64,000 nucleotides of DNA from Cryobacterium lactosi (GTDB lineage: Bacteria > Actinomycetota > Actinomycetes > Actinomycetales > Microbacteriaceae): assembly GCF_004403945.1 (NCBI RefSeq), contig NZ_SOHM01000031.1, positions 150,532 to 214,531 on the forward strand, written 5' to 3'. Shown piece after piece: positions 25,898-41,118 of this stretch. The stretch's first letter is position 1, and every line of letters starts with the position of its first letter. The position numbers and the translations under genes are program-made. The notes under the pieces are model-generated. The model was not told the DNA's origin. It saw nothing but the letters and a program-made list of their open reading frames with translations, and searched no databases.

Positions 25898-27172
25898 GTG
25901 AAAAAGAGCTTGACGGCGATAGTCGCCACAGCAGCAGCGCTCACCGTCGCCCTGGCCGGATGTTCGTCCGGCGGCGGGGGCGGAACATCGGATGACCCGA
26001 ACGCGGAGGTCTCCTTCTGGTCCTTCACCGGGATCAATGCGAAAGACAACGTCGCGGATTACCTCGAAAAGATGCCTGACGCAAAGATCAAGCTGACCGA
26101 GGTCGGCAGCACGACCGAGACCGCTACCGCGCTCACGGCCGCATTGGCAGGCGGCAAGGTGCCCGACCTCATCATGATCCAGAACGACGATCTGCCGAAG
26201 TTCGTCGAGAGCAGTTCCAACTTCCTGGACCTGCGCACACTGGGCGGCGACGACATCGCCGACGACTACCTCGACTGGGCGGCCAGTGCAGCCACCGCAG
26301 AGGATGGTTCCGTTATCGGTATCCCGACCGACGTCGGAGGATTGGGCTTTGCGTACCGCGCTGACCTCTTCGCTGAGGCGGGCCTGCCGACAGAGCCCGA
26401 CGAGGTCGCCGCCATGTGGAAAGACTGGCCCTCTTTCATCGCGATGGGCGAGAAGTACACGGCTGCCACCGGCATGCCGTTCGTGGACAACATCGAGACC
26501 AGCGTCTTTTTCTCGACCGTCAATCAGGTCAGTGAGAAGTACTACTCGCCAGAGGGGGAGCTCGTCTACGACACGAACCCACAGGTGAAGGATGCCTTCG
26601 ACGTCGCTGTGGATACCTACGACGCGGGCATCAGCGCGGGCATCGCGGCGTGGTCGTCTGGCTGGGCTCCTGGGCGGGCGAACGGGGCCTTCGCGGTGAC
26701 CGTGGCCCCGTCCTGGATCCTCTCGGGAATCAAGACCGATGCTCCCGACACCGCGGGCGACTGGCGCATCGCCAGCGTGCCGGGTGTCGGCGGCAACTGG
26801 GGCGGGAGCGTCATCGCCATCCCGGCGCGCGCCGAGCACCCCGAGGCGGCGTGGCAGTACATCAAGACGATGTTGTCGGCCGAGGGCCAGGAGGAGCACT
26901 TCGCGCAGTCCGGTACCTTCCCGGCCGCGACATCGGCCGTGGCAAGCCAGGCGGTCCTCGACTACACCGACCCCTTCTTCGGAGACTCGAAGATCGGCGA
27001 GGTCATGGCGACCTCCGTTCAGCAGTTCCCGTCGTTCTACAACGGCCCTGACACCACCCCGATCAATGGTGCCCTCCTCAACACTCTCGTCGAGGTGGAG
27101 TCCGGCAACGTCACCGCGGGCGAAGCGTGGAAGACCGCCCTCACAACGGCCAAGCAGGCCATCGGCGGCTGA
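25898..27172 (+). CDS. CUT1 ABC sugar-binding lipoprotein
   Basis: A 424-residue extracellular substrate-binding protein. The lipoprotein signal peptide (residues 1-20) ends in LAGC with the lipidated Cys21, followed by a Gly/Ser linker. The mature part is a family 1 extracellular solute-binding domain (VSFWSFTGIN; AALAGGKVPDLIMIQ; YAGISAG-like region; AEHPEAAWQYIKTMLS). GTG 25898 follows GAAGAGG. It feeds two permeases downstream; a strong hairpin after its stop probably allows more binding protein than permease to be made. Predicted ligand: an arabino- or galacto-oligosaccharide, from the regulon shared with GH36/GH127. Confidence 0.93.
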   Translation: MKKSLTAIVATAAALTVALAGCSSGGGGGTSDDPNAEVSFWSFTGINAKDNVADYLEKMPDAKIKLTEVGSTTETATALTAALAGGKVPDLIMIQNDDLPKFVESSSNFLDLRTLGGDDIADDYLDWAASAATAEDGSVIGIPTDVGGLGFAYRADLFAEAGLPTEPDEVAAMWKDWPSFIAMGEKYTAATGMPFVDNIETSVFFSTVNQVSEKYYSPEGELVYDTNPQVKDAFDVAVDTYDAGISAGIAAWSSGWAPGRANGAFAVTVAPSWILSGIKTDAPDTAGDWRIASVPGVGGNWGGSVIAIPARAEHPEAAWQYIKTMLSAEGQEEHFAQSGTFPAATSAVASQAVLDYTDPFFGDSKIGEVMATSVQQFPSFYNGPDTTPINGALLNTLVEVESGNVTAGEAWKTALTTAKQAIGG

Positions 27173-27191
27173 TCGTCCCACCAACCCGAGT

Positions 27192-27218
27192 GGCCCGGCG
27201 CGTGAATCGCGCCGGGCC
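27192..27218 (+). terminator. Intercistronic stem-loop after the binding-protein gene
   Basis: GGCCCGGCGCG (27192-27202) and its perfect complement (27208-27218) close a 5-nt loop, with CCCTTT following. It lies between binding-protein and permease genes, where such hairpins stabilise the upstream mRNA or partly terminate transcription. Confidence 0.75.
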
Positions 27219-27241
27219 GCCCTTTCGACGGAGGTATCCCT

Positions 27242-28201
27242 GTGTCATCGGCGACAGCCACACTCTCGCGCATGAAGCGCAAAGCTCCAGTGCAGAAAAC
27301 CATCCGAATCCGCAACTCGGTCGCCGAGCGGATCGCCCCCTACGCCTACATCGCCCCCTTCTTCATCATCTTCCTCATCTTCGGACTCTTTCCCCTTCTC
27401 TTCACTTTCTATGTCTCGCTGTTCGACTGGAATCCCATCGGGGAACAGACTTTCATCGGCTTCGGGAACTTCGAGCGTTTGTTCGACGACGGACGGTTCT
27501 GGAATGCGCTGCTCAACACATTCGGGATCTTCCTGATCTCGACGATCCCGCAGTTGCTCTTGGCGCTCTTTCTCGCGCACCTGCTCAACCACGCGCGCCT
27601 GCGCTGGGCGAACTTCTTCCGGATGGCACTTCTGGTGCCCTACATCACCTCGGTTGCGGCGACCGCGATAGTCTTCGCGCAGATCTTCGACAAGAACTTC
27701 GGCTTTGTCAACTGGGTTCTCGGGTTGGTCGGGCTCCCGTCGGTGAACTTCCTGGCCACCAACTACGGGTCCTGGATACTCATCTCGGCGATGGTCATGT
27801 GGCGCTGGTTCGGCTACAACACCCTGCTCTATCTGGCGGGGTTGCAGTCGCTGCCCCGCGAGATGTTCGAGGCAGCCTCCGTCGACGGCGCGTCGAGCTG
27901 GCAGCAATTCCGGCATCTGACGATCCCGGCACTGCGCCCCGTCATCGTCTTCACGGTCATCATGTCCACCATCGGCGGGCTGCAGATCTTCACTGAACCG
28001 CTGCTCGTGTCGCCAGAGTCTGGCCTCACCTGCGGCGCGGGTCGACAATGTCAGACGCTGGCGCTCTTCCTCTATGAGCAGGGCTTCGGCCAGTTCCAGT
28101 TCGGCTACGGCTCGGCGATCGGTGTCGTTCTGTTCGTGATCGTCGTTCTCGTGTCGCTGCTCAATTTCTACCTGTCCACACGTACGAGAAAGGCCAACTG
28201 A
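27242..28201 (+). CDS. ABC sugar permease, MalF type
   Basis: A 319-residue inner-membrane permease with six spans. The N-terminal basic stretch is followed by APYAYIAPFFIIFLIFGLFPLLFTFYVSLFDW; the cytoplasmic ATPase-contact (EAA) loop is EAASVDGASSWQQFRHLTIPALRP (about residues 208-231). GTG 27242 follows GGAGG. Its stop shares one base with the start of the next permease (TGATG), so both are made together. No ATPase gene is nearby; a shared MsiK-like ATPase elsewhere is expected. Confidence 0.93.
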   Translation: MSSATATLSRMKRKAPVQKTIRIRNSVAERIAPYAYIAPFFIIFLIFGLFPLLFTFYVSLFDWNPIGEQTFIGFGNFERLFDDGRFWNALLNTFGIFLISTIPQLLLALFLAHLLNHARLRWANFFRMALLVPYITSVAATAIVFAQIFDKNFGFVNWVLGLVGLPSVNFLATNYGSWILISAMVMWRWFGYNTLLYLAGLQSLPREMFEAASVDGASSWQQFRHLTIPALRPVIVFTVIMSTIGGLQIFTEPLLVSPESGLTCGAGRQCQTLALFLYEQGFGQFQFGYGSAIGVVLFVIVVLVSLLNFYLSTRTRKAN

Positions 28202-29106
28202 TGTCAGAAGTGATCGATCAGGCCATCCCGCAGGTGCCGGTCGCACCAGAGGTGAAGCCGGCCCGGGTGCCGAAGCGGCGAGGCTCCGGCGGCAGGGTCA
28301 GCCGGTCCGCGTACGTGTTCCTCGGCATCGCTGTCGTCATATCGGTGTTCCCGCTGTACTACATGTTCGTCATCGCGTCCGCCGGTGCCACGGCCGTGAC
28401 CTCGATCCCGCCACGGCTGTATCCGGGCACGCAATTCTTCGAAGTCGCCGCCAAGGTGTTCGACACCGTCCCGTTCTTCGCCGCCCTGATGAACAGCGTG
28501 TTCGTCTCGCTCACGGTCGCGGTGGTGTCCGCGATCATGTGCGCGATGGCAGGCTTCGCCTTCGCGAAGCTGCACTTCCCCGGCCGGAATCTGTTGTTCC
28601 TCATCGTCATCATGACCATGACGGTTCCGGCTCAGCTCAGCGTGATCCCGCAGTACTTGATCATTTCCCAACTCGGCTGGGTCGACACGCTGCAGGCCAT
28701 CATCGTGCCGGGGCTGGCGAGCGCATTCGGAATCTTCTGGATGCGGCAACACATGTCGACCACGGTCAGTGACGAGCTCATCCAGGCTGCCGTGCTCGAC
28801 GGCGCCAATTCCTGGCAGATGTTCTGGGGGATTGCCTTCCCAGTGGTGCGCCCGGCCGCGTTCGTGCTCGGCCTGATCACCTTCACGGGAGTCTGGAACG
28901 ACTTCATGTGGCCGTTCATCGTGCTGAAATCACCGGAGTTGTTCACCGTGCAGATCGCGCTGAAGCAACTCCAGGCCAACCGCACGATCGATGTGGCACT
29001 GGCCATGGGCGGATCGTTCCTGGCGACCCTGCCGCTTCTGATCGTGTTCTTCTTCGTTGGACGTCGCATGGTCTCGGGGATCATGGACGGGGCATTCAAA
29101 GGCTGA
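28201..29106 (+). CDS. ABC sugar permease, MalG type
   Basis: A 301-residue six-span permease, partner of the preceding one. Hydrophobic start SAYVFLGIAVVISVFPLYYMFV, EAA loop IQAAVLDGANSWQMFWGIAFPVVRP (about residues 196-220), and the typical C-terminus RRMVSGIMDGAFKG. The first 35 residues are a Pro/Arg-rich cytoplasmic tail. Start ATG 28201 overlaps the previous stop. The last gene of the transporter unit; 156 bp then separate it from the GntR regulator. Confidence 0.93.
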   Translation: MSEVIDQAIPQVPVAPEVKPARVPKRRGSGGRVSRSAYVFLGIAVVISVFPLYYMFVIASAGATAVTSIPPRLYPGTQFFEVAAKVFDTVPFFAALMNSVFVSLTVAVVSAIMCAMAGFAFAKLHFPGRNLLFLIVIMTMTVPAQLSVIPQYLIISQLGWVDTLQAIIVPGLASAFGIFWMRQHMSTTVSDELIQAAVLDGANSWQMFWGIAFPVVRPAAFVLGLITFTGVWNDFMWPFIVLKSPELFTVQIALKQLQANRTIDVALAMGGSFLATLPLLIVFFFVGRRMVSGIMDGAFKG

Positions 29107-29246: not shown

Positions 29247-29306
29247 GTGACAGAATTCGCAAATGACCGATCAACATCCCGCTCCGGGGCGCGTGCTGCA
29301 ACGTAA
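29247..29306 (+). other. Leader ORF overlapping the GntR start
   Basis: GTG 29247 has a strong ribosome site (GAGGAGGGG) a few bases upstream and opens a 19-residue ORF (VTEFANDRSTSRSGARAAT) that runs over the start of the GntR gene in another frame. The GntR ATG at 29263 has no visible ribosome site. It may be a coupling leader or mark a frameshifted start; unresolved. Confidence 0.3.
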
Positions 29307-29955
29307 AGTCCTGGCCGACTACGTGTATGAAGAAATCCTCTCCTCTCTGATCGATGGGCGCCGGGAGCCCTCCGCGACGATCAGCATCGACGGCCTGGCG
29401 CGCGAGCTCAACGTTTCACAGACGCCGGTGCGCGAGGCCCTGGCCCGGTTGGAGCACACCGGAATGGTGCGGCGTATCGCACTCAAGGGGTACACCGTCG
29501 CCCCGCTGTCGACTCCGAAGGAGCTGGCCCAGCTGGTTGACGCCCGCATCGTGATCGAACCGACGAACGCCGAGTGGGCGTGCAAACGCGCTACGACCCA
29601 ACTCTGCGACGCGTTGCAGGAAACCATTGACCGTCTCGGGGCGTCGCACACCGGCGCCACCTTTGCGGAGTTCCGTGACTACTGGCAGGCAGATGAGGAT
29701 TTTCACCGCATCATTGCCGAGAACGCCGACAACCCTTTCGTGCTGGCCGCCTTCAAGACCCTCGGGGGCCAGATCCAGCGGTTCAGGTTCTTTGCCGGCA
29801 AGGGTGTGACGGATGCCGACAGCGCGATCCGCGAGCACACCGCCATTCTGCAGGCCTTCCTCGACCGTGATCCGGAGCGGGCGCGAGTGGCAATGGTGGA
29901 GCATTTGGTGGGTGTTCGCGAGCGGTCCGTGCGCGACAGCGGGGGAGTCGAGTAG
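29263..29955 (+). CDS. GntR-family regulator with FCD domain
   Basis: A 230-residue regulator of the FadR/FCD group, which usually senses organic or sugar acids. Winged helix at about 15-82 (LADYVYEEILSSLIDG; ISIDGLARELNVSQTPVREALARLEHTGMVRR), then an all-helical FCD ligand domain with metal-site residues around DEDFHRIIAENADN and IREHTAILQAFLDRD. The upstream in-frame stop limits the start to ATG 29263 or a later GTG. It precedes the sugar-acid operon, whose promoter carries a perfect inverted repeat that is its most likely binding site. Confidence 0.9.
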   Translation: MTDQHPAPGRVLQRKVLADYVYEEILSSLIDGRREPSATISIDGLARELNVSQTPVREALARLEHTGMVRRIALKGYTVAPLSTPKELAQLVDARIVIEPTNAEWACKRATTQLCDALQETIDRLGASHTGATFAEFRDYWQADEDFHRIIAENADNPFVLAAFKTLGGQIQRFRFFAGKGVTDADSAIREHTAILQAFLDRDPERARVAMVEHLVGVRERSVRDSGGVE

Positions 29956-29976
29956 GCCTGAGCCGCCGCCGTCGGC

Positions 29977-30023
29977 TTGACAAGCGCTCTTTGATCGTAG
30001 ATCGTATAGGAAATACGATCTAC
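29977..30023 (+). promoter_or_regulatory. Promoter and perfect 27-bp operator of the sugar-acid operon
   Basis: A TTGACA -35 box (29977-29982) precedes GTAGATCGTAT (29997-30007), mirrored perfectly by ATACGATCTAC (30013-30023) across AGGAA. The repeat covers the -10 area and lies 15 bp before the first gene of the operon. Binding by the adjacent GntR protein is inferred. Confidence 0.75.
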
Positions 30024-30038
30024 ACAACGGAGTGATGT

Positions 30039-31034
30039 ATGCGCTACACAGCCCAAACCTGGCCCATCACTGCAGCACTGCTGCAGTTTCCCGGAACCGA
30101 TGCCCACGGCACCTCGACGCAGGACGCCGATGCAGGCGTCTGGGCGGAGGTCTTCACCGAGGTGAAGGAGGCCGGCTTCGCCAACGTCGACCTCTTCGAC
30201 ACCTGGATTCGCCCCGGGGATCTTTCCAGCGATCGGCTGGATGAACTGGGGGCCACCGCCAGAAGCGTGGGCGTGGGCGCGCCGTCGATCTCCGCCATCC
30301 GTCGCAGCGTCATCGACGAGGCCGGCTGGCAAGACAACCTCGCCTACAGCCATCGCACCCTCGAGGCGGCCGCCCACCTCGGCTGCGAAGTCGTCTCGTT
30401 CGGCCTGCACCAGGCACTGACCCCGGAGCAGAAGAGGCAGCTGTGGTTCTGGACCGTCGAAGGCCACCAGGATCCCGTCGGCGACGCCGAGGTCTGGGGC
30501 AAAGCCGTCACGCGCCTGCAGGAACTCGGCCGCCACGCCGCCGAGCTGGGGCTGCTGATGTCGCTGGAACTCTACGAAGACACCTACCTCGGCACCGGAG
30601 ACTCCGCCGCACAGCTGGTGCAGGACATCGGGTTGACCAACGTGGGGTTGAACCCCGACATCGGCAACCTGGTGCGTCTGCACCGTCCGATCGAAGCCGT
30701 GCAGGAGATGATCGCGAAAACGGTTCCCTACGCCAACTACTGGCACGTGAAGAACTACAGCCGAGACGAGAACCTGGCCCGCAACCAGTTCACCGCCGTG
30801 CCGGCACCGCTGGAGAGCGGCGTGATCAGCTACCGGGAAGCCTTCCGCACGGCACTCTCCTTCGGCTTCCAGGGCATCATCTGCACGGAGCACTATGGCG
30901 GCGACGGCCTCAGCGTCTCGGCCACCAACCAGGCCTACCTGCGAGAGAAGATCCTGCCGAAGACCGAGAACTACGTTCTCGGCACCCCGCTCGTGGCCCA
31001 GGGACGGCAGACGCCGAACGTCGCTTCCGCCTAG
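30039..31034 (+). CDS. Xylose-isomerase-like TIM-barrel protein, candidate beta-keto sugar-acid decarboxylase
   Basis: A 331-residue sugar phosphate isomerase/epimerase-type barrel. Metal-ligand regions are visible: MSLELYEDTYLG (about residues 173-184), VGLNPDIGNLVRLH, YWHVKNYSRD and GIICTEHYGGDG. ATG 30039 follows GGAG by six bases. Family members are isomerases or epimerases, but in D-apionate catabolism a member of this fold is reported to decarboxylate 3-oxo-isoapionate to L-erythrulose. With an erythrulose kinase-like gene and two tetrose-phosphate isomerases next door, that role fits here. It is an inference from context. Confidence 0.75.
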   Translation: MRYTAQTWPITAALLQFPGTDAHGTSTQDADAGVWAEVFTEVKEAGFANVDLFDTWIRPGDLSSDRLDELGATARSVGVGAPSISAIRRSVIDEAGWQDNLAYSHRTLEAAAHLGCEVVSFGLHQALTPEQKRQLWFWTVEGHQDPVGDAEVWGKAVTRLQELGRHAAELGLLMSLELYEDTYLGTGDSAAQLVQDIGLTNVGLNPDIGNLVRLHRPIEAVQEMIAKTVPYANYWHVKNYSRDENLARNQFTAVPAPLESGVISYREAFRTALSFGFQGIICTEHYGGDGLSVSATNQAYLREKILPKTENYVLGTPLVAQGRQTPNVASA

Positions 31035-31148
31035 GCCGGGCACATCCGGCGCGCCTAATGACAACGGCCCCGCTCTACCTCACTGCGCCTTCGGCGCCGC
31101 TTACGCTCGAACGCGGCCGCCGGCGCCCAACCTGTTCAACGGAGAATA

Positions 31149-32921
31149 ATGACACGGATATTTGACGATCCCGCCGCATTCGCCGACGACGCCTTGACCG
31201 GATTCGTCGCAGCCCATCGGCGCTATGTCGCCCGCGTGGACGGTGGCGTTGTGCGGGCCACCGAAATGACCCCCGGGCAAGTCGCTGTCGTCATCGGCGG
31301 TGGTTCGGGACACTATCCCGCCTTCGCCGGCCTGGTCGGCCAGGGTCTGGCCGCCGGTTCGGCCTGCGGCAACATGTTCGCCTCGCCGGCGGCCGCCCAG
31401 ATCTACCGGGTCGCCAAGGCGGCCAACGCCGGAGGCGGAGTGCTGCTGAGCTACGGCAACTACGCCGGGGACGTGCTGCACTTCGGTCAGGCCCAAGACC
31501 GCCTGAACGCGGAGGGTATCCCCACCCGCACGGTTGTCGTCACCGATGACATCGCCAGCGCCCCCGTGGCCGACCTCGACAAACGGCGCGGAATCGCGGG
31601 TGACCTGACGGTCTTCAAAATCGCCGGCGCTGCAGCGGAGGCCGGGCACGATCTCGCCGACATCGAACGGCTGGCCCGCGCGGCCAACCTACGCACCCGT
31701 TCCCTCGGGGTGGCCTTCGACGGCTGCACCCTGCCGGGGGCCGACGAACCCCTCTTCAGCGTTCCCGCCGGCCGGATGTCGCTGGGGCTGGGCATCCACG
31801 GTGAGCCGGGGATCTCCGACCACGACCTGCCCAGCGCCAGCGAGCTGGCCGGACTCCTCGTCAGCCGGCTCCTCGCCGAGAGACCTGCCGGTGCCGGAAA
31901 CCGGGTCGTGCCCATCGTCAACGGTCTCGGCACGGTCAAGTACGACGAACTCTTCCTGCTCTTCGGCAAGATCGAGACCCTGTTGCAGAACGCCGGTCTC
32001 GAGGTCGTCGAACCCGAATGCGGGGAGCTGGTCACCAGCCTGAACATGTCGGGCCTCTCGCTCACCCTGTTCTGGGTCGATGACGAACTGCTCGAGCTCT
32101 GGACGGCGCCGGCCGACACTCCCGCGTTCCGCCGAGGCAACACCACCGCCCGGGCACAGCGCACCTTCGAGCACTCCGCGCCTGACGAAGAAACGGCGAC
32201 GCCACCGGCCACGGATGCCGCCACCAGGCTCGGCGCCGGCGCCCTCACCCTGCTGCGGGCCGCCCAGGCGGTCGTGCTCGAGCACGAGCAGGACTGGGGC
32301 CACCTGGATGCAATCGCCGGCGACGGCGACCACGGTATCGGCATGCGTCGAGGCGTCGACGCCGCTGCGCAGGCCGCGACCGTGGCCGTTCAGGCAGGCG
32401 CCGGTGTCGATCGGGTGCTCGGCCAGGCCGGCGAGGCCTGGGCCGAGAAGGCCGGCGGCACCTCTGGTGCGCTCTGGGGAGCGGCACTATGCGCCACGGG
32501 TCGCTCGCTCGGTGACCGGGAGGGTTACGCCACCGCCGACGCCGTCGACGCGGTCGAATCGTTCAGTTCCGCGATCATCGAGCTGGGCAAGGCCGAACTC
32601 GGCGACAAGACGATGGTGGACGCGTTGCTTCCCTACGTCGCGGCGTTCACGGCCGAAAGCCGTGCCGGCGCATCCATCGTCGACGCCCTCACGGCAGCGG
32701 CCGCGGCAGCGGAGACGGCGGCCGCCGACACGGCCGCGCTGAGCCCACGGCGCGGGCGGGCCCGTCCGCTCGCCGAGCGCAGCATCGGACATCCCGACCC
32801 CGGAGCCGTCTCGTTCGGGCTGATCGCCGCCGGCGTGGCCCGTGCGCACGCCGCTCTCGCGACCCCGGACACCAGCACAACCGACACAGAAGCACCGACA
32901 GCAGAGGACGTGAGCGCATGA
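31149..32921 (+). CDS. DhaK-DhaL fusion kinase, probable erythrulose kinase (LerK-like)
   Basis: A 590-residue ATP-dependent ketose kinase of the dihydroxyacetone-kinase family. DhaK domain (1-330): [19 protein letters not shown] and the substrate-binding His in GLGIHGEPG near residue 217. DhaL domain (355-560): [14 protein letters not shown] with the magnesium-binding Asps and [11 protein letters not shown] linker rich in Thr and Ala joins them. In actinobacterial erythritol and apionate pathways such fusions phosphorylate L-erythrulose; dihydroxyacetone remains possible. ATG 31149 follows GGAG. The stop overlaps the next start (ATGA). Confidence 0.88.
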
Positions 32922-33385
32922 GCACCAAGTGGCGCATTGTCATCGGCAACGATGAAGCCGGTGTCCAATTCAAGACCGCCTTGAAACAGCTGCTCGAAGC
33001 GGACGACCGCGTCGAGACCGTCACCGATGTGGGCGTGGGAGAGAAGGACACCACCGCCTACCCGCACATCGCCGTCACCGCGGCGCGCAGGGTCGCTGCG
33101 GGGGAGTTCGACCGGGCATTGCTGATTTGCGGCACCGGGCTGGGCGTGGCCATCTCGGCCAACAAGGTTCCGGGCATCCGCGCCGTCACCGCCCACGACA
33201 GCTACTCCATCGAGCGATCCGTGCTGAGCAACAACGCCCAGGTCCTCACGCTCGGCCAGCGGGTCATCGGCCTCGAACTGGCCAAGAAACTGGTCACCGA
33301 GTGGCTCGGTTACCGGTTCGACGAAAGTTCCGCCTCGGCCGACAAGGTCGCCGCGATCGCATCCTACGAAGTGAAAGAGAGCTAA
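32918..33385 (+). CDS. RpiB/LacAB-family isomerase, probable EryI (D-erythrose-4-phosphate isomerase)
   Basis: A 155-residue sugar-phosphate aldose-ketose isomerase. [15 protein letters not shown] (7-21) and the catalytic Cys in [22 protein letters not shown] are visible. RpiB interconverts ribose and ribulose phosphates, but with a DhaKL-type kinase and a TpiA paralogue beside it, it matches EryI, which turns D-erythrulose 4-phosphate into D-erythrose 4-phosphate. Overlaps the kinase gene by four bases and is followed 4 nt later by the dehydrogenase. Confidence 0.88.
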
Positions 33386-33389
33386 ACCC

Positions 33390-34340
33390 ATGACACACAC
33401 CATCGCAATCGTCGGATCCGGCTACATGGGCGGCGGCATCGCCCAGGTTCTGGCCCTCGCCGGCAACCAGGTCTACCTCGCCGACATCTCGCTCGAGGTG
33501 ACCGAGAAGAACTACCAGCGTCTCATCGCCGAATCGCGGGATTTCGTCGCGGCCGGCCTCTTCGCCGAGGGTTCCACCGCCCTCCTCGAGGCCAACCTGC
33601 ACGTGGCCGCGACTGTGGAAGACGCCGTCGCCGGCGCCGACTTCATCGAGGAGGCCGTGCCAGAGGTGCTCGCGATCAAGCACGACATCCTCGCCCGTAT
33701 CAGCGCCGCCGCGCGCCCCGAGGCCATCATCGGCTCCAACACCTCCACCATTTCGATCGGCGACATGGCGTCAGCGGTGATCCACCCCGAGCGTTTCCTC
33801 GGTGTGCACTTCTCCAACCCGTCTCCGTTCATCCCCGGCGTCGAGGTCATCCCGCACACCGGCACCGCCGCGGACGTCGTCGACCGGGCCCGCGAGATCG
33901 TGCATTCCACGGGCAAGCAGACCGCCGTGGTGAAAGACGTCACCGGATTCGTGCTCAACCGCCTGCAGTACGCGCTCTTCCACGAAGCCACTCAATTGGT
34001 CGAAGAAGGCGTTGCCACGCCCGACGACATCGACACCCTGGTGCGCACCACCTTCGGGTTCCGCCTGCCGATCTTCGGCCCCTTCGCCATCGCCGACATG
34101 GCCGGACTCGACGTTTACAACTTCTGCTACGCATCGCTGCAGACCGGGTTCCCTGAGCGGTTCGCGACACCGAAGATCCTCACCGATCTGGTGGATGCGG
34201 GAAAGCTCGGCACCAAGTCGGGCGGCGGCTTCCTCGACGTTCCCGCGGAGCGCACGGCGGACCTCATCGCCTACCGCAACAAGGCCTATGTGGCCATGCA
34301 GAAGCTCATCGACGACCTCGGCCCGGCCCCGCTGCACTAG
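33390..34340 (+). CDS. 3-hydroxyacyl-CoA-dehydrogenase-family oxidoreductase, candidate sugar-acid 3-dehydrogenase
   Basis: A 316-residue NAD-dependent dehydrogenase. Rossmann motif IAIVGSGYMGGGIAQVLALAG (5-25), ADFIEEAVPE, SNTSTISI and HFSNPSPFIPGVEVIPH with the catalytic His, then the helical dimerisation domain GFVLNRLQYALFHEATQLVEEGVA. The family includes L-gulonate 3-dehydrogenase (lambda-crystallin), which oxidises a sugar acid at C3. No other fatty-acid genes are near, so a sugar acid is the better substrate here. The product, a beta-keto acid, would be decarboxylated by the barrel protein encoded two genes upstream of the operon's isomerase. Confidence 0.85.
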   Translation: MTHTIAIVGSGYMGGGIAQVLALAGNQVYLADISLEVTEKNYQRLIAESRDFVAAGLFAEGSTALLEANLHVAATVEDAVAGADFIEEAVPEVLAIKHDILARISAAARPEAIIGSNTSTISIGDMASAVIHPERFLGVHFSNPSPFIPGVEVIPHTGTAADVVDRAREIVHSTGKQTAVVKDVTGFVLNRLQYALFHEATQLVEEGVATPDDIDTLVRTTFGFRLPIFGPFAIADMAGLDVYNFCYASLQTGFPERFATPKILTDLVDAGKLGTKSGGGFLDVPAERTADLIAYRNKAYVAMQKLIDDLGPAPLH

Positions 34341-34366
34341 ACCCCGGTCACCCGGAGGCCTCGACC

Positions 34367-35164
34367 TTGCCAGCACCGACCATGCCAGCATCAACCCCTG
34401 CCACGACGGGGCAACAGCACTGCGTTATCGGAGTCAGCACCAAAATGTACCTGGGCTACCAGGCCAGCCTGGACTGGCTCACGGCAGTGCGCGCCGTCGT
34501 GGCGGCTCGCGCGCCGCTGCCGGCCGCACTGACGGTCTTCGTCGCCCCCTCGTTCCCCGTGCTCGAGAGCGCGCACCGTATTCTGGCCGGCAGCGGGGTG
34601 GTGCTCGGCGCCCAAAACTGCAGCACGGCGGCAGGCGCCCTCACCGGTGAAGTCAGCCCCGCCCTGCTCGCGGAAATGGGTGTGGAGCTTGTCGAGATCG
34701 GCCACGCCGAACGCCGTCGGCTCTTCGGTGAGACGGATGCGGTCGTCGCAGCCAAGACGGCGGCGGCCGTCTTGGCCGGGCTCACGCCGTTGCTCTGTGT
34801 GGGGGAGACCGTGCGTGACACCCCCACCGCCACGGCACAGTTCTGCTACGAGCAGATCACCAACGCGCTCGGCCGGGGTGTGCACCTGGACAGCGTGATG
34901 GTCGCCTACGAACCCGTCTGGGCGATCGGCGCCGCCGAGCCGGCCGAGCCCGCCTATGTGAACGACGTCGTCGGTCGACTGCGCGAGTCACTTCGCCCGC
35001 TCTCTGCGGCCGGGGGCCCGCAGATCATCTACGGCGGAAGCGCCACGGTGGGTCTCCTGCCACGGCTGGTGGCCGTGGACGGGCTGTTCCTCGGTCGGTT
35101 CGCTCACGATCCAGCCGCGTTCGGCCGAATACTCGACGAGGCCATCCACCGCGTCAGCCGGTGA
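34367..35164 (+). CDS. Triose-phosphate-isomerase paralogue, probable EryH (L-erythrulose-1-phosphate isomerase)
   Basis: A 265-residue TIM homologue. Lys26 in GVSTKMY, His113 in EIGHAERR and Glu182 in YEPVWAIG match the TIM triad, and the phosphate loop IIYGGSAT is intact. Two usual residues differ: the Asn of the N-terminal NxK motif is Ser, and the Ser after the catalytic His is Ala114, which suggests a different substrate. EryH-type paralogues convert L-erythrulose 1-phosphate to D-erythrulose 4-phosphate. TTG 34367 is chosen because GGAGG lies eight bases upstream; ATG 34382 is too far from it. Confidence 0.85.
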   Translation: MPAPTMPASTPATTGQQHCVIGVSTKMYLGYQASLDWLTAVRAVVAARAPLPAALTVFVAPSFPVLESAHRILAGSGVVLGAQNCSTAAGALTGEVSPALLAEMGVELVEIGHAERRRLFGETDAVVAAKTAAAVLAGLTPLLCVGETVRDTPTATAQFCYEQITNALGRGVHLDSVMVAYEPVWAIGAAEPAEPAYVNDVVGRLRESLRPLSAAGGPQIIYGGSATVGLLPRLVAVDGLFLGRFAHDPAAFGRILDEAIHRVSR

Positions 35165-35224
35165 TCCCTGCGCTCGCTGCCCCTGTTTTCCTTGAATCAA
35201 TGACGTTTCGTAAGGACATTGCCC

Positions 35225-36622
35225 ATGCTCACCCTTCAGACGGCGACCGAGCTCGCCCTCCCCGTCCCCGCATTGCTCGGCATCGCCGTCGGCGCGGTCG
35301 TGGTGCTCTTGCTGTTGATCATCAAATTCCGCATGCACGCCTTCTTCGCGCTCATCATCGTGAGCATCGTCACCGCCGCCGTGGCTGGCGTCAACGCCGA
35401 TGAACTCATCGACACCCTCGTGGGCCCGTTCGGACGTACCCTGGGCAATGTCGCCCTGCTGGTCGGGTTCGGTGCCGTTCTCGGTCGCATCGTCGAGACC
35501 TCAGGCGGTGCCCAGGTTCTCGCCGACAGCCTGCTGCGAGTCTTCGGCGAGAAACGCGCCCCGCTCGCCCTGTCGGTCGCGTCACTCCTGTTCGGGTTCC
35601 CGATCTTCCTCGATGCCGGGTTCCTCGTGATGCTGCCCATCATCTACACCGTGGCCCGGCGCCTGGGTGGCGGACTGCTGCTCTACGCTCTCCCGGCAAC
35701 GGGCGCGTTCCTGATGATGCACGCCCTCGTGCCGCCGCACCCCGGCCCCGTCGCCGCCGCCGGAATCATCGGCGCCGATGTCGGTCTCGTGCTGATGGTC
35801 TCCCTGCTCGTCGGATTGCCGACCTGGTACGTCGCCGGCTATCGGCTCGCGCTCGTGCTGGCCAAGCGCCATCCGGCCCTCGCTGTTCCGGAACTGCTCG
35901 GCCTGCCGCCCAAGACGGTGGTCAACCCGCCCAAGTTCGGCGTCGTCCTGCTGGTGCTGCTTCTTCCGCTGGTGCTCATCTTCATGAACACCGGTCTCTC
36001 CACTCTGGTCGCCACCGGGACCATCGGCGACGACCAACTGTGGGCGCAGATTCTCATCTTCATCGGCAACACGCCCATCGCACTTCTCCTGTCGACACTG
36101 CTGGCCATGTACCTGCTGGTGATTCGGCGTACCCGCGGTCGGCTGGGCGGGGCTCTGGAAGACCTCGTCGACGATGCCCTCGCGCCCGTCGTGTCGATCA
36201 TCCTGATCACCGGGGCCGGCGGCATGTTCGGCGGCGTCCTGACCGCGACGGGTATCGGCGGTGCGATGGCCGAGAGCCTCGACGCCATCGGGTTGCCGCT
36301 CATTCTGGCGGGATTCCTCGTGGCCGTCATCATGCGCGTCGCTCAGGGCTCGGCCACCGTCGCGGGCACAACCGCAGCTGGTCTGATGGCGCCGGCAATC
36401 CTGGCCTCGGGGGAGACCAACCCCTTCGCGCTGGCCTGCATCACCGTCGCCATCGTCGCCGGTGCCATCACGTTCTCGCACGTGAACGACTCAGGCTTCT
36501 GGCTGGTGAGCCGATTCCTCGGTCTCAGCACGTCGCTCGCCCTGCGCACCTGGAGCGTGCTCGCCACCGCGATCGGGTTCATGGCTTTCGGTCTGGTCTG
36601 GATCCTGTACTCATTCGTGTGA
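35225..36622 (+). CDS. GntP-family sugar-acid:proton symporter
   Basis: A 465-residue inner-membrane carrier of the GntP group, which takes up gluconate and related sugar acids. Visible: FGRTLGNVALLVGFGAVLGRIVETSGGAQVLADSLL, FLDAGFLVMLPIIYTVARRLGG, HALVPPHPGPVAAAGIIGADVG and AQGSATVAGTTAAGLMAPAI, all family landmarks. ATG 35225 has AAGGA eight bases upstream; TTG 35219 is too close. As the last gene of the operon it defines the substrate class as a sugar acid, supporting a C5-acid pathway. Confidence 0.92.
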   Translation: MLTLQTATELALPVPALLGIAVGAVVVLLLLIIKFRMHAFFALIIVSIVTAAVAGVNADELIDTLVGPFGRTLGNVALLVGFGAVLGRIVETSGGAQVLADSLLRVFGEKRAPLALSVASLLFGFPIFLDAGFLVMLPIIYTVARRLGGGLLLYALPATGAFLMMHALVPPHPGPVAAAGIIGADVGLVLMVSLLVGLPTWYVAGYRLALVLAKRHPALAVPELLGLPPKTVVNPPKFGVVLLVLLLPLVLIFMNTGLSTLVATGTIGDDQLWAQILIFIGNTPIALLLSTLLAMYLLVIRRTRGRLGGALEDLVDDALAPVVSIILITGAGGMFGGVLTATGIGGAMAESLDAIGLPLILAGFLVAVIMRVAQGSATVAGTTAAGLMAPAILASGETNPFALACITVAIVAGAITFSHVNDSGFWLVSRFLGLSTSLALRTWSVLATAIGFMAFGLVWILYSFV

Positions 36623-36766: not shown

Positions 36767-37138
36767 ATGAGCTTCACTCCCGAGGAGAGCGCCACCCCCG
36801 AGGAGATCGCGCAAGCGTTCTCCAGCCACCGCTTCGAGGTGGCCCTGCCGTATCTCGCCGACGACATCGTGTGGAGCGTCGTCGGTGACGAGCCGGTGCT
36901 CGGGCGCGACACCGTAGAGAAACTCTGCCGACGGAGCGCCGAGGACCTCGTGCAGGTGACCACCGAGTTCCAACGCTTTCGCACGGTCGTCGGCGGTGAC
37001 AGCGTCGTGGTCGACAGCCTCGCTCGGTACACCGAGGCCGGCGGCGACGTTTCGGTGGTGGCGTCCTGCGACATCTTCGATTTCGTCGACGGTCGCGTCA
37101 CCGAGATCGTCTCGTACACGATCGAGATCGACGGCTGA
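36767..37138 (+). CDS. NTF2-like (SnoaL-type) protein
   Basis: A 123-residue small alpha+beta protein of the NTF2-like superfamily: helix IAQAFSSHRFEVALPYLADDIVWSVVGDEPVLGRD followed by strands carrying VVDSLARYTEAGGDVSVVASCDIFDFVDGRVTEIVSYTIEI. Such proteins serve as isomerases, polyketide cyclases or ligand-binding modules; nothing here says which. ATG 36767 follows AAAGGACGAGG. It stands alone between the sugar-acid operon and an oxidoreductase gene. Confidence 0.8.
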   Translation: MSFTPEESATPEEIAQAFSSHRFEVALPYLADDIVWSVVGDEPVLGRDTVEKLCRRSAEDLVQVTTEFQRFRTVVGGDSVVVDSLARYTEAGGDVSVVASCDIFDFVDGRVTEIVSYTIEIDG

Positions 37139-37231
37139 CGGCCGCTCCAGCGTTCTCGAGCCCGGTCTGAGCACCATTGCAGTATTTGAGCGTGGTGGCG
37201 CGGGCGCCTGTGACCCTGACAGGCTGGAACG

Positions 37232-38284
37232 ATGACAAACGTGATGACGGCAGCCGTGTTGACCAAATTCGGTGGCCCCGAAGTCGTGGAACTGCACCAC
37301 GACTGGCCGTGTCCTCGCCCGCAGAACAACCAGGTCCTGGTGAAAGTGTCTGCGGCAGCGGTGAACAACACAGACATCTGGACCCGGCAGGGCGCCTACG
37401 GATTGCCCGAGGATCCCGCAGCTCAGGCCGGCTGGCTGGGCACCTTTGATTTTCCGCGAATCCAGGGTGGAGACATCGTGGGTGTCGTCGCCCTGGTGGG
37501 GGCCGGTGTGACCGAAGACATGATGGGTCGACGGGTGCTGGTGGACCCCGCCCTGTACGGCTCCGAGGACGACAACGCGTCACCGGTGGGGTACCTGGGA
37601 AGCGAGGCCGACGGCGGGTTCGCGCAGTACGTGGCCGTGGACGCCTCGCATGCCCACGACGTGCAGGACTCGCCACTGTCAGACGAGCAGCTGGCGTGTC
37701 TGCCCGTCGCCTTCGGCACAGCGATCGGGATGCTCGAACGTGCGCGGGTGCAGGGCGGCGAGACCGTGCTGGTGACAGGGGCATCCGGGGGAGTGGGCCT
37801 CGCCCTGGTGCAGCTGGCCGCGGCGCGCGGCGCGCGGGTGCTGGCGATCACGAGTGGCTCCAAAGAGGATGCCGTACTCGCGAACGGGGCAGCTCGAGTC
37901 TTCAACCGGGACTCAGCCGACATCCAGGCCGAGATTGCCGCCGCCTCGCCCGGCGGACTGGACGTTGTTGCGGACATCGCGGGCGGACCGGGAGTCTCGG
38001 CCCTGATGCCCCTGCTTCGGGACAACGGTCGATGGGTCATCGCCGGTGCCGTTGCGGGGCCGGTGATCGAATTCGACCTTCGACGTCTGTATCTGCACAA
38101 TGTGCAACTGATCGGATCCTCGATGCACACCCGTGTTCATTTCCGACGTCTTGTCGAGTTGGCCCGCCGTGGGGACGTGCGCCCCCAGGTCAGCGGCACG
38201 TTTGCTCTGACCGAGATTGCGGAGGCCCACAGGGAGTTCTCCGCACGACGACACATCGGCAAGATTGTCATCCTGCCGCGCTGA
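37232..38284 (+). CDS. Zinc-free MDR/quinone-type oxidoreductase
   Basis: A 350-residue medium-chain dehydrogenase/reductase related to quinone oxidoreductase. The GroES-like N-terminal domain carries NNTDIWTRQGAYG; the NADPH-binding fold carries VLVTGASGGVGLALVQLAAARGARVLAITSG. The structural and catalytic zinc cysteines are absent, as in NADPH-dependent quinone or enone reductases. Its C-terminus (RRLVELARRGDVRPQVSGTFALTEIAEAHREF) is family-typical. Probably a general reductase of alpha,beta-unsaturated carbonyls. No ribosome site is obvious before ATG 37232. Confidence 0.88.
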   Translation: MTNVMTAAVLTKFGGPEVVELHHDWPCPRPQNNQVLVKVSAAAVNNTDIWTRQGAYGLPEDPAAQAGWLGTFDFPRIQGGDIVGVVALVGAGVTEDMMGRRVLVDPALYGSEDDNASPVGYLGSEADGGFAQYVAVDASHAHDVQDSPLSDEQLACLPVAFGTAIGMLERARVQGGETVLVTGASGGVGLALVQLAAARGARVLAITSGSKEDAVLANGAARVFNRDSADIQAEIAAASPGGLDVVADIAGGPGVSALMPLLRDNGRWVIAGAVAGPVIEFDLRRLYLHNVQLIGSSMHTRVHFRRLVELARRGDVRPQVSGTFALTEIAEAHREFSARRHIGKIVILPR

Positions 38285-38343
38285 GCGCGCTCTGTACGCT
38301 CTCGGTACGGCACGCTCTCGAAGTATTTTCTCGGAACTGTTGC

Positions 38344-38395
38344 GCTAATACGTATAACCAGTTAGCTTTTCGAAAGCACGGTAATACGCATTAGC
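38344..38395. promoter_or_regulatory. Pair of inverted LacI-type operators
   Basis: GCTAATACGTATAACC (38344-38359) and GGTAATACGCATTAGC (38380-38395) are inverted copies of one another with two mismatches, 36 bp centre to centre, each with a central CG flanked by AT-rich arms. They lie 46-97 bp before the LacI gene, which suggests autoregulation of the whole five-gene unit. Confidence 0.65.
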
Positions 38396-38440
38396 AGTTG
38401 CCCGTGGCAACGTCTCACCGCCGAGAAAGAGAATCCTGCA

Positions 38441-39502
38441 ATGTCGCACACAAAGTCGCAACGAGTCACCCAGCGCACCATCGCTGAGCTGGCCGGCGTG
38501 AGTCAGGCCACGGTCTCGCTCGTTCTCAACGGCAAAGCAGATTCGACCTCGCGGATTCCGGAGGCAACACGCCGACGAGTGCTCGACGCGATCGCCGAAA
38601 CGACCTATGTGGCGGACCCCGCCGCACGAAGCCTCGCCGGCGTCGGCAACGACCTCGTTGGCATCTTCACCTACGAGCCGGCCTTCCCGCAGGAAACCTC
38701 GGACTTCTACGCGCCCTTGCTGATGGGCATCGAAACCACTGCAGAGTCGCTCGGTGTGGACCTGCTGATGTTCACCAGCGCGCCCATAGTCGATGGGCGC
38801 CGCCAGCTCTTCCACGAGAAGAACCGCCTGCGACTCGCCGACGGATGCCTGCTGCTCGGCCAGAAGATGGACACCGGAGAACTCAACCGCCTCGTCGACT
38901 CCGGCTATCCCTTCGTGGCTATCGGCCGACGGGACGATCCCGCTGGGCGCATCCCATACGTCGGTGTCGACTACGCGAATGCCACGTCGACCCTCGCGGA
39001 ACTCGCCCTTGCCCGAGGACACACTCGGTTCTATTCACTGCACGTGCCGACCGATGCCGAGTCCACCCGCGACCGCCAGTCCGGATTGGTGCGCGTGCTC
39101 GACGAGGCCCGAGTCGAGTTGACCAGCGCAACCACCGACGGCTCCGACCTCGAGGCCGCGTGGCGAGCCATCCGAAAAGCTCAGCCCACGGTGCTGATCG
39201 TCGAGGACGCCACCCATGCCCACCGCCTCGTCGATATCGCTGTCGCGGACGGCGTCGATGTCCCGAACGACCTATCGATTGTGGTGCTCGGCGAGCGCAC
39301 TCGTCCCAGCGAACGCGGCCTCGACTTCACCCGGCTCGCCGCTCCGCGGCCGCAGCTCGGCTCGAATGCGATCACCCTCCTGCACCAGATCATGAACGGC
39401 TCATCCGATGCCGTTGAACCACTACCGCACCGGCAACTGCTCGAGTGCGTCATCATCGAGGGCGCCACACTGGGCGCCCCGAGAATCGGGAGCAATCTGT
39501 GA
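38441..39502 (+). CDS. LacI-family regulator heading the FAD-oxidoreductase/ABC operon
   Basis: A 353-residue regulator with helix-turn-helix RTIAELAGVSQATVSLVLNGKAD (12-34), a hinge IPEATRRRVLDAI and a sugar-binding domain (DLVGIFTYEPAF; SIVVLGERTRP; PQLGSNAITLLHQ). It is the first gene of an operon of oxidoreductase, binding protein and two permeases, and its stop overlaps the next start. Two inverted operator-like sites lie just upstream, so it should repress its own operon until the imported ligand binds. Confidence 0.9.
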   Translation: MSHTKSQRVTQRTIAELAGVSQATVSLVLNGKADSTSRIPEATRRRVLDAIAETTYVADPAARSLAGVGNDLVGIFTYEPAFPQETSDFYAPLLMGIETTAESLGVDLLMFTSAPIVDGRRQLFHEKNRLRLADGCLLLGQKMDTGELNRLVDSGYPFVAIGRRDDPAGRIPYVGVDYANATSTLAELALARGHTRFYSLHVPTDAESTRDRQSGLVRVLDEARVELTSATTDGSDLEAAWRAIRKAQPTVLIVEDATHAHRLVDIAVADGVDVPNDLSIVVLGERTRPSERGLDFTRLAAPRPQLGSNAITLLHQIMNGSSDAVEPLPHRQLLECVIIEGATLGAPRIGSNL

Positions 39503-41118
39503 ACCGCACGTCTCTCAGCACCGAAGTTCTCGTGGTCGGCGGTGGCATGGGCGGCGTCTCCGCAGCCCTCGCTGCGCTACGCGGCGGCAAGCGCGTCATC
39601 CTCACCGAGGAATACCAGTGGCTCGGCGGGCAGCTCACCAGCCAGGCCGTGCCGATGGACGAGCACACCTGGGTGGAGCAGTTCGGGGTGACGGCGTCGT
39701 ACCGGGAGCTACGTGAAGGCATCCGCGACTACTACCGCGACAACTACCCTCTACTCCAGAAGGTGAAAGACCGCGCCGATCTCAACCCGGGTGCCGGCCT
39801 CGTCAGCCGACTGTGCGCCGAACCTCGGGTGGCCGTCGCCGTCATCGACGCCCTGTTCGCGCGGTACCTCGGATCACAGCAGCTCACCATCATCAAGTCC
39901 GTCGTGCCCCTTTCGGCCGAGGTCGACGGCACCCGGGTGACCTCGGTGACGCTCGCCTCCCTCACCGGTGACACCGAGACGACGATCACCGCCGACTACG
40001 TGCTCGACGCCACCGAACTCGGCGACCTGCTGCCCCTGACCGGTGCCGAGTACGTCACGGGCACCGAGGGCCGCGACGAGACAGGCGAGCCCAGCGCACC
40101 CGAGGTCGGCGACGCCGAGAACGTGCAGGCCCTGTCCTGGTGCTTCGTACTCGACCACGTCGACGGCGAAGACCACACCATCCAGAAGCCCGCGAGCTAT
40201 GACTACTGGCGCAACTACGCCCCCGAATTCTGGGGCGCGCCACTTCTGAGCCTGACGGCACCGCACCCGCGCACGCTCGAGATCGTCACCCGGTCGTTCA
40301 ACCCTCTCGTCAACGACGACCCGACGACGCAGCTCGCCGACCAGCGTGCCGGCGGTGGCGATGAGGAACTGTGGGTCTTCCGTCGCATCCTGGCCAAGGG
40401 CAACCTCACTGCCGGTCACCTGCAGGGTGACCTCGTACTCGTGAACTGGCCCATGATCGACTACCTCGACGGCAACATCATCGATGCGGATGCCGCCTCG
40501 CGGGCGCGCCACCTGGAAGCCTCCCGCCAGCTCAGCTACTCCTTCTTCTACTGGCTGCAAACTGAAGCGCCCCGCCCCGACGGCGGGACCGGCTGGCCGG
40601 GGTTGCGGTTGCGCGGCGACATCACCGGTACCGAGGACGGACTCGCCATGGCACCCTACATCCGTGAGTCGCGCCGCATCCGTGCCGAGTACACCGTCGT
40701 CGAAGGTGACCTGTCGATCGCTGCCCGCGGACATGGCCGCCCGGCCACGTATCCCGACACCGTCGGGGTCGGGATGTACCGCATCGACCTGCACCCGTCA
40801 ACGGGTGGGGACAACTACATCGACGTCGCTTCGGCGCCGTTTGAGATTCCGCTCGGAGCGATGATCCCGGTTCGCCTGGACAACCTCCTCCCCGCGGGTA
40901 AGAACGTCGGCACCACCCACATCACCAACGGGGCCTTCAGGCTCCACCCGGTGGAGTGGAACATCGGCGAGGCAGCGGGCTGGCTAGCGGCCTTCTGCCT
41001 GGACCACGCGGTGGATCCCCGCGTGGTCCGCAACACACCTCGGTTGCTCGAGGAATTCCAATCCCTTCTCACAACCCGGGGTGTCGAGCTGCACTGGCCC
41101 GACGTCACCGGCTACTAA
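39499..41118 (+). CDS. FAD-dependent oxidoreductase of unknown substrate
   Basis: A 539-residue flavoprotein of the FAD_oxidored group. The dinucleotide-binding motif VLVVGGGMGGVSAALAALRGGKRVILTEE is near residues 10-38, followed by YQWLGGQLTSQAVPMDEHT, a second flavin motif DYVLDATELGDLLPLTG, and a C-terminal IPLGAMIPVRLDNLLPAGKNVGTTHITNGAFRLHPVEWNIGEAAG. Relatives occur in polysaccharide and sugar-acid loci but their reactions are largely unassigned. GTG 39499 overlaps the LacI stop, with GGGAG six bases upstream, so it is co-translated with the regulator. No signal peptide: it acts on an imported substrate. Confidence 0.85.
   Translation: MNRTSLSTEVLVVGGGMGGVSAALAALRGGKRVILTEEYQWLGGQLTSQAVPMDEHTWVEQFGVTASYRELREGIRDYYRDNYPLLQKVKDRADLNPGAGLVSRLCAEPRVAVAVIDALFARYLGSQQLTIIKSVVPLSAEVDGTRVTSVTLASLTGDTETTITADYVLDATELGDLLPLTGAEYVTGTEGRDETGEPSAPEVGDAENVQALSWCFVLDHVDGEDHTIQKPASYDYWRNYAPEFWGAPLLSLTAPHPRTLEIVTRSFNPLVNDDPTTQLADQRAGGGDEELWVFRRILAKGNLTAGHLQGDLVLVNWPMIDYLDGNIIDADAASRARHLEASRQLSYSFFYWLQTEAPRPDGGTGWPGLRLRGDITGTEDGLAMAPYIRESRRIRAEYTVVEGDLSIAARGHGRPATYPDTVGVGMYRIDLHPSTGGDNYIDVASAPFEIPLGAMIPVRLDNLLPAGKNVGTTHITNGAFRLHPVEWNIGEAAGWLAAFCLDHAVDPRVVRNTPRLLEEFQSLLTTRGVELHWPDVTGY

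Follow-up and report, generated by a model that had tools for sequence, protein, structure and literature searches.

A GntP-linked operon of Cryobacterium lactosi as a candidate upper branch of L-erythrulose catabolism

Which compound is degraded by an operon that joins a sugar-acid importer and a dehydrogenase of the 3-hydroxyacyl-CoA dehydrogenase (3HCDH) family to a kinase and two isomerases of the kind used on erythritol? Such a set, consisting of seven open reading frames (ORFs) all on the + strand at positions 29263-36622, is present in the 64,000-nucleotide stretch of the 4.66 Mb genome of Cryobacterium lactosi analyzed here (contig NZ_SOHM01000031.1, positions 150,532 to 214,531; the window). 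The ORF and Pfam analyses agreed with an earlier note on this DNA in gene order, outer coordinates and protein families: a GntR/FCD regulator, a xylose-isomerase-like barrel, a DhaK-DhaL kinase, RpiB, a 3HCDH-type dehydrogenase, a paralogue of triose-phosphate isomerase (TIM, TpiA) and GntP. The Pfam gathering scores were exceeded by all seven proteins (GntR and FCD; AP_endonuc_2; Dak1 and Dak2; LacAB_rpiB; 3HCDH_N and 3HCDH; TIM; GntP_permease). In the pathway that we propose, GntP would import a C5 sugar acid under the control of the GntR/FCD protein, the 3HCDH-family enzyme would oxidize the 3-hydroxyl group of the acid to give a 3-oxo acid, and the metal-dependent barrel would decarboxylate the latter to L-erythrulose. 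The kinase, the TIM paralogue and RpiB would then convert L-erythrulose to erythrose 4-phosphate. We are confident of this last part, and consider the oxidation and decarboxylation of a C5 acid to L-erythrulose probable, with clearly less certainty; the chemistry of the dehydrogenase and the barrel, as well as the substrate, is what we infer from sequence comparisons. The operon is probably a new upper branch of the known L-erythrulose pathway, made of ordinary parts in an unusual combination. No description of this operon or of a pentonate-to-erythrulose route was found in the literature searched, a partial body of text that leaves subscription papers largely outside its coverage.

The lower steps can be compared with the erythritol/L-threitol route of Mycobacterium smegmatis, reportedly described by Huang in 2015. 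This route (EltD, LerK, LerI, DerI) has the same kinase and two isomerase steps and the same product, erythrose 4-phosphate (PMC10733421). LerK, LerI and DerI act in the order L-erythrulose, L-erythrulose 1-phosphate, D-erythrulose 4-phosphate and erythrose 4-phosphate (PMC10733421; PMC5992420, PMC12780249). In contrast, the input to the window pathway would be an imported acid, a 3HCDH enzyme and the barrel, without a polyol dehydrogenase or sugar ABC part. The Brucella-type EryA-B-C-H-I route shares the steps of the TIM paralogue (EryH) and RpiB (EryI) (PMC5992420). However, the window operon contains no FGGY kinase, glycerol-3-phosphate-dehydrogenase-type or EryC-like gene, phosphorylation would follow ketose formation, and its TIM belongs to a different paralogue clade.

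The distribution of the gene set was assessed in loci of relatives fetched by the barrel alone, the best 80 of 556 confirmed ones being kept; 78 of these are Micrococcaceae, so the 80 loci are not independent. BLASTP matches were found for the kinase in 79/80, RpiB in 76/80, the dehydrogenase in 76/80 (in L012 about 9 kb further on), GntR in 72/80 and the TIM paralogue in 71/80. For MFS and SDR genes the counts below are lower bounds, because in that separate labelling of the loci some genes, including the Halotalea kinase and TIM, were masked by competing queries. Four of the loci, L013, L047, L050 and L062, are short stretches ending near the barrel, and the TIM paralogue is also missing from L012, L041, L044, L045 and L076. 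Among the loci listed, the closest named relative by barrel was Cryobacterium gelidum (87%). The gene set was also seen in Halotalea (L089), in G074 of the same class (L010) and in G643 (L116, with no RpiB seen there). In two samples of 296 and 398 genomes, the barrel occurred in four and five, respectively, counting the own genome and that of Halotalea. Of the 93 plasmid records with the barrel, five were examined, two of these being unannotated (tblastn) and another one of the five being left unused. On one Sinorhizobium meliloti plasmid (L091:12947-14648), the barrel-side kinase is absent from the gene table, which is incomplete, and appears as several tblastn pieces.

The kinase and the TIM, with RpiB left aside, were searched for genome-wide in 11 barrel-bearing genomes (10 distinct ones, as G008 and G298 give identical places). 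All 11 contained the kinase at 52-100% identity and the TIM paralogue at 41-100%, together with a second TIM at 35-41%; in the own genome the second TIM is 38% identical to the operon copy. Distant DhaK-like genes (34-39%) were present in nine of the 11, and G257 and G074 had instead a second close copy (56% and 54%). In the kinase tree, where several branches are long, ten distant DhaK-like rows, presumed to be dihydroxyacetone (DHA) kinases, are split from the trio kinases by a branch with a support of 100/99, and the window kinase groups with the kinases of apionate-type loci. Similarly, ten housekeeping TIMs lie on one side of a 100/99 branch of the TIM tree with the operon TIM outside, the latter joining at 100/99 the TIMs of gammaproteobacterial apionate-type loci and of separate trios. 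A housekeeping TIM or an ordinary DHA kinase was rejected for the operon genes on the basis of the second copies and the tree positions. The separate trios come from G344 and G652, with a GntP-barrel-dehydrogenase set, and from G606, with a PdxA-Tct-barrel set: the trio is missing from the fetched barrel stretch, but at another site the kinase and TIM genes are neighbours, flanked by a divergent RpiB gene and followed by a transketolase (model TIGR00232 above cut-off in L163 and L165). The operon TIM keeps the motifs STKM, GHAERR, AYEPVW and YGGS. In G074 a kinase-RpiB pair without a TIM paralogue stands beside a GolD/DthD-family dehydrogenase (above cut-off), as expected if the TIM serves the L-erythrulose branch only.

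These positions also bear on a C4 acid as the substrate. A tetronate (threonate or erythronate) could be 3-oxidized and decarboxylated to dihydroxyacetone, on which the kinase would act as a DHA kinase and the TIM paralogue as triose-phosphate isomerase. The name of the kinase family, dihydroxyacetone kinase, agrees with this, as do a DUF1537 (OtnK-like) kinase gene within 9 kb of the operon in 6/80 loci, an L-threonate-dehydrogenase-like gene in C. gelidum and a member of the D-erythronate dehydrogenase family in the Halotalea locus. Yet RpiB, present in 76 of the loci, would have no role in such a pathway, neither the kinase nor the TIM falls into the distant-DhaK or housekeeping-TIM clade, both are found again in apionate-type loci, and no DUF1537 kinase is found among the seven operon proteins. 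We therefore regard a C4 acid as unlikely. The DUF1537 kinases nearby may point to an environment in which further short sugar acids occur.

The trio recurs in combination with a second acid-oxidizing module. The D-apionate pathway, reportedly described by Carter in 2018 with ApnO together with either OiaC or OiaK/OiaX, likewise leads from an acid to a 3-oxo acid and by decarboxylation to the level of a C4 ketose, followed by TIM and RpiB. PF16896, which we take to be the apionate oxidoisomerase (ApnO) domain, was above cut-off in 18/398 proteobacterial genomes, and the stretches around the domain were fetched from these 18. In three of them (L196, L200, L202) the PF16896 protein is accompanied by RpiB, a kinase 53-62% and a TIM 43-48% identical to those of the window, a barrel of about 270 amino acids (AP_endonuc_2 in L202) and a transketolase, with a transaldolase in two of the three. 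In L190 and L194, TIM and RpiB adjoin PF16896 without that barrel, and no such trio was seen in the remaining 13 stretches. The barrel adjoining ApnO is presumably OiaC and is called the OiaC candidate here. A Rhizobium plasmid carries a gene annotated as oiaX, for 3-oxo-isoapionate-4-phosphate decarboxylase, with a four-carbon acid sugar kinase, TIM and RpiB, and then a 'phosphogluconate dehydrogenase C-terminal domain' protein, which supports the identity of PF16896 and the use of TIM and RpiB downstream of an L-erythrulose phosphate. Apiose enzymes are listed with EC numbers in PMC11747546. One Microbacteriaceae genome (L166:5335-12340) has a sugar-lactonase-type gene, an MFS gene, kinase, RpiB, an OiaC-candidate barrel and a PF16896 gene in a cluster, which reads as an actinobacterial apionate-type locus without a TIM of its own.

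Among the 11 barrel-bearing genomes, PF16896 was matched in four (G257, G296, G606, G652), and had no match in the own genome or in the six others. G296, G606 and G652 have no trio beside the ApnO-type module, and each genome shows one kinase above 50% and one TIM paralogue; in G257 the ApnO-type module is accompanied by kinase and RpiB without a TIM. Thus, judged from gene content, two acid modules appear to converge on one trio. The earlier note had named D-apionate as a possible substrate, which the present comparisons do not support. In such a pathway, D-apionate or an epimer would pass through 3-oxo-isoapionate, with the 3HCDH enzyme replacing ApnO and the barrel being a divergent OiaC. 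The two kinds of locus do share a slot in which a dehydrogenase and an AP_endonuc_2 barrel feed the same kind of trio, and the barrel and the OiaC candidate have colinear motifs, in the same order, around the putative metal ligands. However, the own genome lacks a PF16896 match, the window dehydrogenase is of another family and the similarity of the two barrels is very low. To our knowledge, no 3HCDH enzyme catalyzes the migration of a hydroxymethyl group. In addition, the presence of both modules in four genomes (in G606 with a PdxA-type, not a 3HCDH, partner of the barrel) suggests that another acid is probably the substrate of the window module. D-apionate is accordingly improbable in our view.

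The proposed input part is shared with a distant genus. Between Halotalea (Halomonadaceae) and the window, the barrel, dehydrogenase and GntP are 73%, 75% and 74% identical, respectively, in contrast to 57% for the kinase, 51% for the TIM and 66% for RpiB, as if a barrel-dehydrogenase-GntP cassette plugs into the resident trio. The dehydrogenases of Halotalea, G344 and G652 group within the actinobacterial rows of their tree (a 100/99 clade of 13, with the inner order partly open). The cassette appears to move between phyla. The dehydrogenase slot itself is variable: three rhizobial records (Sinorhizobium, Pararhizobium, Ensifer) have a PdxA-type protein there, together with a TCT importer, G606 likewise has a PdxA-type protein, and a Streptomyces plasmid set has a 3-hydroxyisobutyrate-dehydrogenase-type protein. 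Several of these families act on hydroxy acids, which fits an oxo acid as the compound passed on to the barrel. In most Micrococcaceae loci, a FabG-like SDR and an importer of the ACS-type MFS kind are also present; an ACS-type MFS occurs in at least 64 and GntP in five of the 80 loci, and in some no importer was identified. One ORF of the Halotalea locus (L089) encodes a sugar-binding regulator.

The 3HCDH domains that the earlier note had assigned to the dehydrogenase were recovered, but its placement in the L-gulonate 3-dehydrogenase branch was not: the best PDB match was 4om8 (179 bits), 3mog scored 175 bits, and the lambda-crystallins 3f3s and 3ado reached 127 and 116 bits. The motifs HFSN at 140 and DVTGFVLNR at 183 are present. 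In the 3-dehydro-L-gulonate route, L-gulonate 3-dehydrogenase, a 3HCDH-family enzyme, is followed by a decarboxylase of another family than the window barrel. The chemistry would be the same one carbon longer, with 3-oxidation of an aldonate and beta-decarboxylation to a ketose, although that route leads from C6 to C5 and the window enzyme is nearer to other 3HCDH members. Acyl-CoA metabolism was considered for the dehydrogenase and rejected, because the seven proteins include no CoA ligase, transferase, thiolase or hydratase.

The barrel is matched by PDB 5tnv (E-value in Table 1), which is also rank 1 by fold. This entry, a xylose isomerase-like barrel of M. smegmatis with magnesium, belongs to the same family and names no function. 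The predicted structure is a TIM barrel with a mean pLDDT of 72.5 and a pTM of 0.80. The residues E177, D207, H236 and E284, which we take to be the metal ligands, are invariant in 20 aligned sequences (the window and 19 of the 80 loci). By eye, the L010 barrel of G074, presumably a mycobacterial genome, is close to 5tnv.

Several observations weigh against the proposed pathway or parts of it. No enzyme of the operon scored above the equivalog cut-off of a characterized enzyme for this pathway. RpiB reached 161.6 bits on the DerI model NF051858, the cut-off of which is 240, and was above the cut-off of RPI_actino; the RpiB tree resolved little. The window TIM is not in the EryH clade, which is that of the L-erythrulose-1-phosphate isomerase 11ef, and lies in a sister paralogue clade. 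The other TIM group (96/95 and 98/94) holds the TIMs of erythritol-type loci, the oiaX-side TIM and the operon TIM of G074 (L010, on a long branch). Either clade thus seems able to supply the TIM of this slot, which points to a single function, that of an L-erythrulose 1-phosphate isomerase. Of the LerK/EryH/EryI-type trio that the earlier note had recognized, the function is supported by recurrence and trees, and the assignment of the TIM to EryH is not. The dehydrogenase is closer to FHMPC and 3-hydroxybutyryl-CoA dehydrogenases than to the lambda-crystallin/L-gulonate branch. Some members of the PdxA family oxidize and decarboxylate by themselves, and the rhizobial PdxA partner would then leave another job to the barrel, which is the best argument against its decarboxylase role. 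The best argument against a uniform import of acids is the sugar ABC system beside the gene set of G643. The input of an acid rather than a polyol, as supposed earlier, mostly agrees with the importers found (ACS-type MFS, GntP, TCT), the exceptions being G643 and L012, the latter with an Nramp-like gene. Finally, the number of carbon atoms in the acid is deduced from the proposed product.

The fold of the barrel points the same way: after 5tnv, its neighbours are mostly ketose 3-epimerases, with Foldseek rows 2-50, as listed, showing the same fold at 11-18% identity. The resemblance to the OiaC-candidate barrel is remote (BLASTP E-value of 0.012 in a single comparison; hhalign probability of 54% with 23% identity over 202 columns), and the profile of the latter gave no PDB match. 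By these values, the window barrel is not close to the candidate for the type that decarboxylates 3-oxo-isoapionate, which had been suggested previously. It could be that the dehydrogenase step is followed by spontaneous decarboxylation to D-erythrulose, and that the barrel acts as a 3-epimerase on a ketose or ketose phosphate, in the manner of EryC or tagatose 3-epimerase, leading to the L series. A PdxA-type partner, as in the rhizobia, is compatible with such a role. Furthermore, EryC is described as a D-erythrulose 1-phosphate 3-epimerase (PMC10733421), and a TIM-barrel protein occupies the place of EryC in erythritol-type loci. On the other hand, the window barrel is not significantly similar to the barrel that stands for EryC in an erythritol-type locus (L215:7172-8101; E-value of 0.29, also a single BLASTP comparison), and D-erythrulose phosphorylated at C4 could need RpiB alone, as in the DthD-type locus without a TIM. 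An epimerase is for these reasons a doubtful explanation, and we retain the decarboxylase as the proposed function.

If L-erythrulose is the product, a linear 3-oxo-pentonate must have the L configuration at C4. The 3HCDH family is specific for L-3-hydroxy substrates, and L at C3 together with L at C4 favours L-arabinonate or L-ribonate, which is a stereochemical derivation and not evidence. We tentatively suggest a linear L-pentonate, one of these two, as the substrate, at a little under even chances. A branched isoapionate-type acid, degraded through an intermediate like 3-oxo-isoapionate, is a possible substrate and the main alternative, and is equally compatible with the product. Slightly more tentative is the pathway as a whole, in which a linear L-pentonate would be oxidized at C3 by the 3HCDH enzyme and beta-decarboxylated to L-erythrulose by the barrel, with a phylum-crossing cassette feeding a resident trio that also serves apionate. 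If this is true, a conserved barrel family of solved structure but without an assigned role (5tnv) and a branch of stand-alone 3HCDH proteins would each gain a function, and L-erythrulose would be a metabolic hub fed by several interchangeable acid-oxidizing modules. It would also leave a small number of candidate substrates, for which erythrose-4-phosphate auxotrophs offer a convenient selection. For the three trio genes, the best annotation models name dihydroxyacetone kinase, ribose-5-phosphate isomerase and triose-phosphate isomerase, and such operons are therefore easily misread.

A conserved site accompanies the regulator. The core TATAGGAA of the inverted repeat listed in Table 1 lies at most 80 bases upstream of the barrel gene in 77/81 sequences (the window and the 80 loci), compared with a chance expectation of about 0.003 per region (density of the core 8-mer in all loci), and in most loci a wider form, ATCCTATAGGAAA..GAT, surrounds it. 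None of the 72 loci with a GntR match lacks the core, although these co-occurrence counts are inflated by the relatedness of the loci and the GntR match of L011 is just 39% and on the opposite strand. The core is missing in L041, L044, L076 and L089, all four without a GntR match; it is present without such a match in L020, and L033, L038 and L054 begin too near the barrel to show GntR. The site is, from this pattern of co-occurrence, the probable operator of the GntR/FCD protein. No second copy with fewer than three mismatches was found in the own genome. The uniqueness of the repeat and its upstream conservation argue for one unit starting at the barrel gene and make it less likely that the flanking ABC genes share its control. 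A polyol (erythritol/threitol) operon was also considered and rejected, because no polyol dehydrogenase or sugar ABC part is found among the seven proteins and no second operator copy lies near the upstream ABC genes.

Table 1. Features of the operon and the basis of their assignment (window positions)
Feature	Position	Strand	Basis
GntR/FCD regulator, probable operon regulator	29263..29955	+	PF00392, PF07729
Probable operator, perfect 11-bp inverted repeat GTAGATCGTAT-aggaa-ATACGATCTAC (5-bp spacer), between GntR and barrel genes	29997..30023	.	Repeat search, core conservation
Xylose-isomerase-like TIM barrel, proposed 3-oxo-acid decarboxylase forming L-erythrulose	30039..31034	+	PF01261; PDB 5tnv E 2.8e-86
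Fused DhaK-DhaL kinase, proposed LerK-type 1-kinase for L-erythrulose	31149..32921	+	PF02733+PF02734; kinase tree
RpiB (LacAB_rpiB)	32918..33385	+	RPI_actino above cut-off; elsewhere also found next to kinase and TIM paralogue
Stand-alone 3HCDH-family dehydrogenase, proposed 3-oxidation of C5 acid	33390..34340	+	PF02737+PF00725; top PDB match 4om8
TIM (TpiA) paralogue	34367..35164 (start TTG 34367 or ATG 34382)	+	Non-housekeeping clade; motifs
GntP-family sugar-acid importer	35219..36622 (start TTG 35219 or ATG 35225)	+	TIGR00791 gluconate:H+ symporter above cut-off

The kinase and RpiB genes overlap by 4 bp. A sigma-70 promoter scan found no site, and terminator-like sites were about at chance level (5 vs 3.7). 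Upstream, positions 25898-29106 encode by eye, without a family search, a sugar ABC transporter (a binding protein and two permeases) that ends 156 bases before the GntR gene. Downstream, SnoaL-like, zinc-ADH-like and FAD-dependent oxidoreductase genes and a LacI-like gene, the latter again named by eye, occupy 36767-41118 and are probably a separate set. Homologues of the upstream ABC and the downstream SnoaL, zinc-ADH, LacI and FAD genes were not seen in the stretches of the 80 relatives, with the exception of weak permease matches (26-29%) in four of them.

Three further gene groups were noted in the relatives. In C. gelidum, the L-threonate-dehydrogenase-like gene (below cut-off) and a DUF1537 kinase gene adjoin the operon (L011:14997-17449). 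In Halotalea, the member of the D-erythronate-dehydrogenase family (L089:6956-7933, above cut-off) has an MFS gene on one side and the kinase-RpiB-TIM-transketolase genes on the other. The genomes of C. gelidum and Arthrobacter ipis also carry a paralogue of the dehydrogenase (54-55% identical) together with an SDR and a histidinol-dehydrogenase-family protein (L111:2681-5823 and L112:8826-12090, respectively), a cluster that looks like another hydroxy-acid route.

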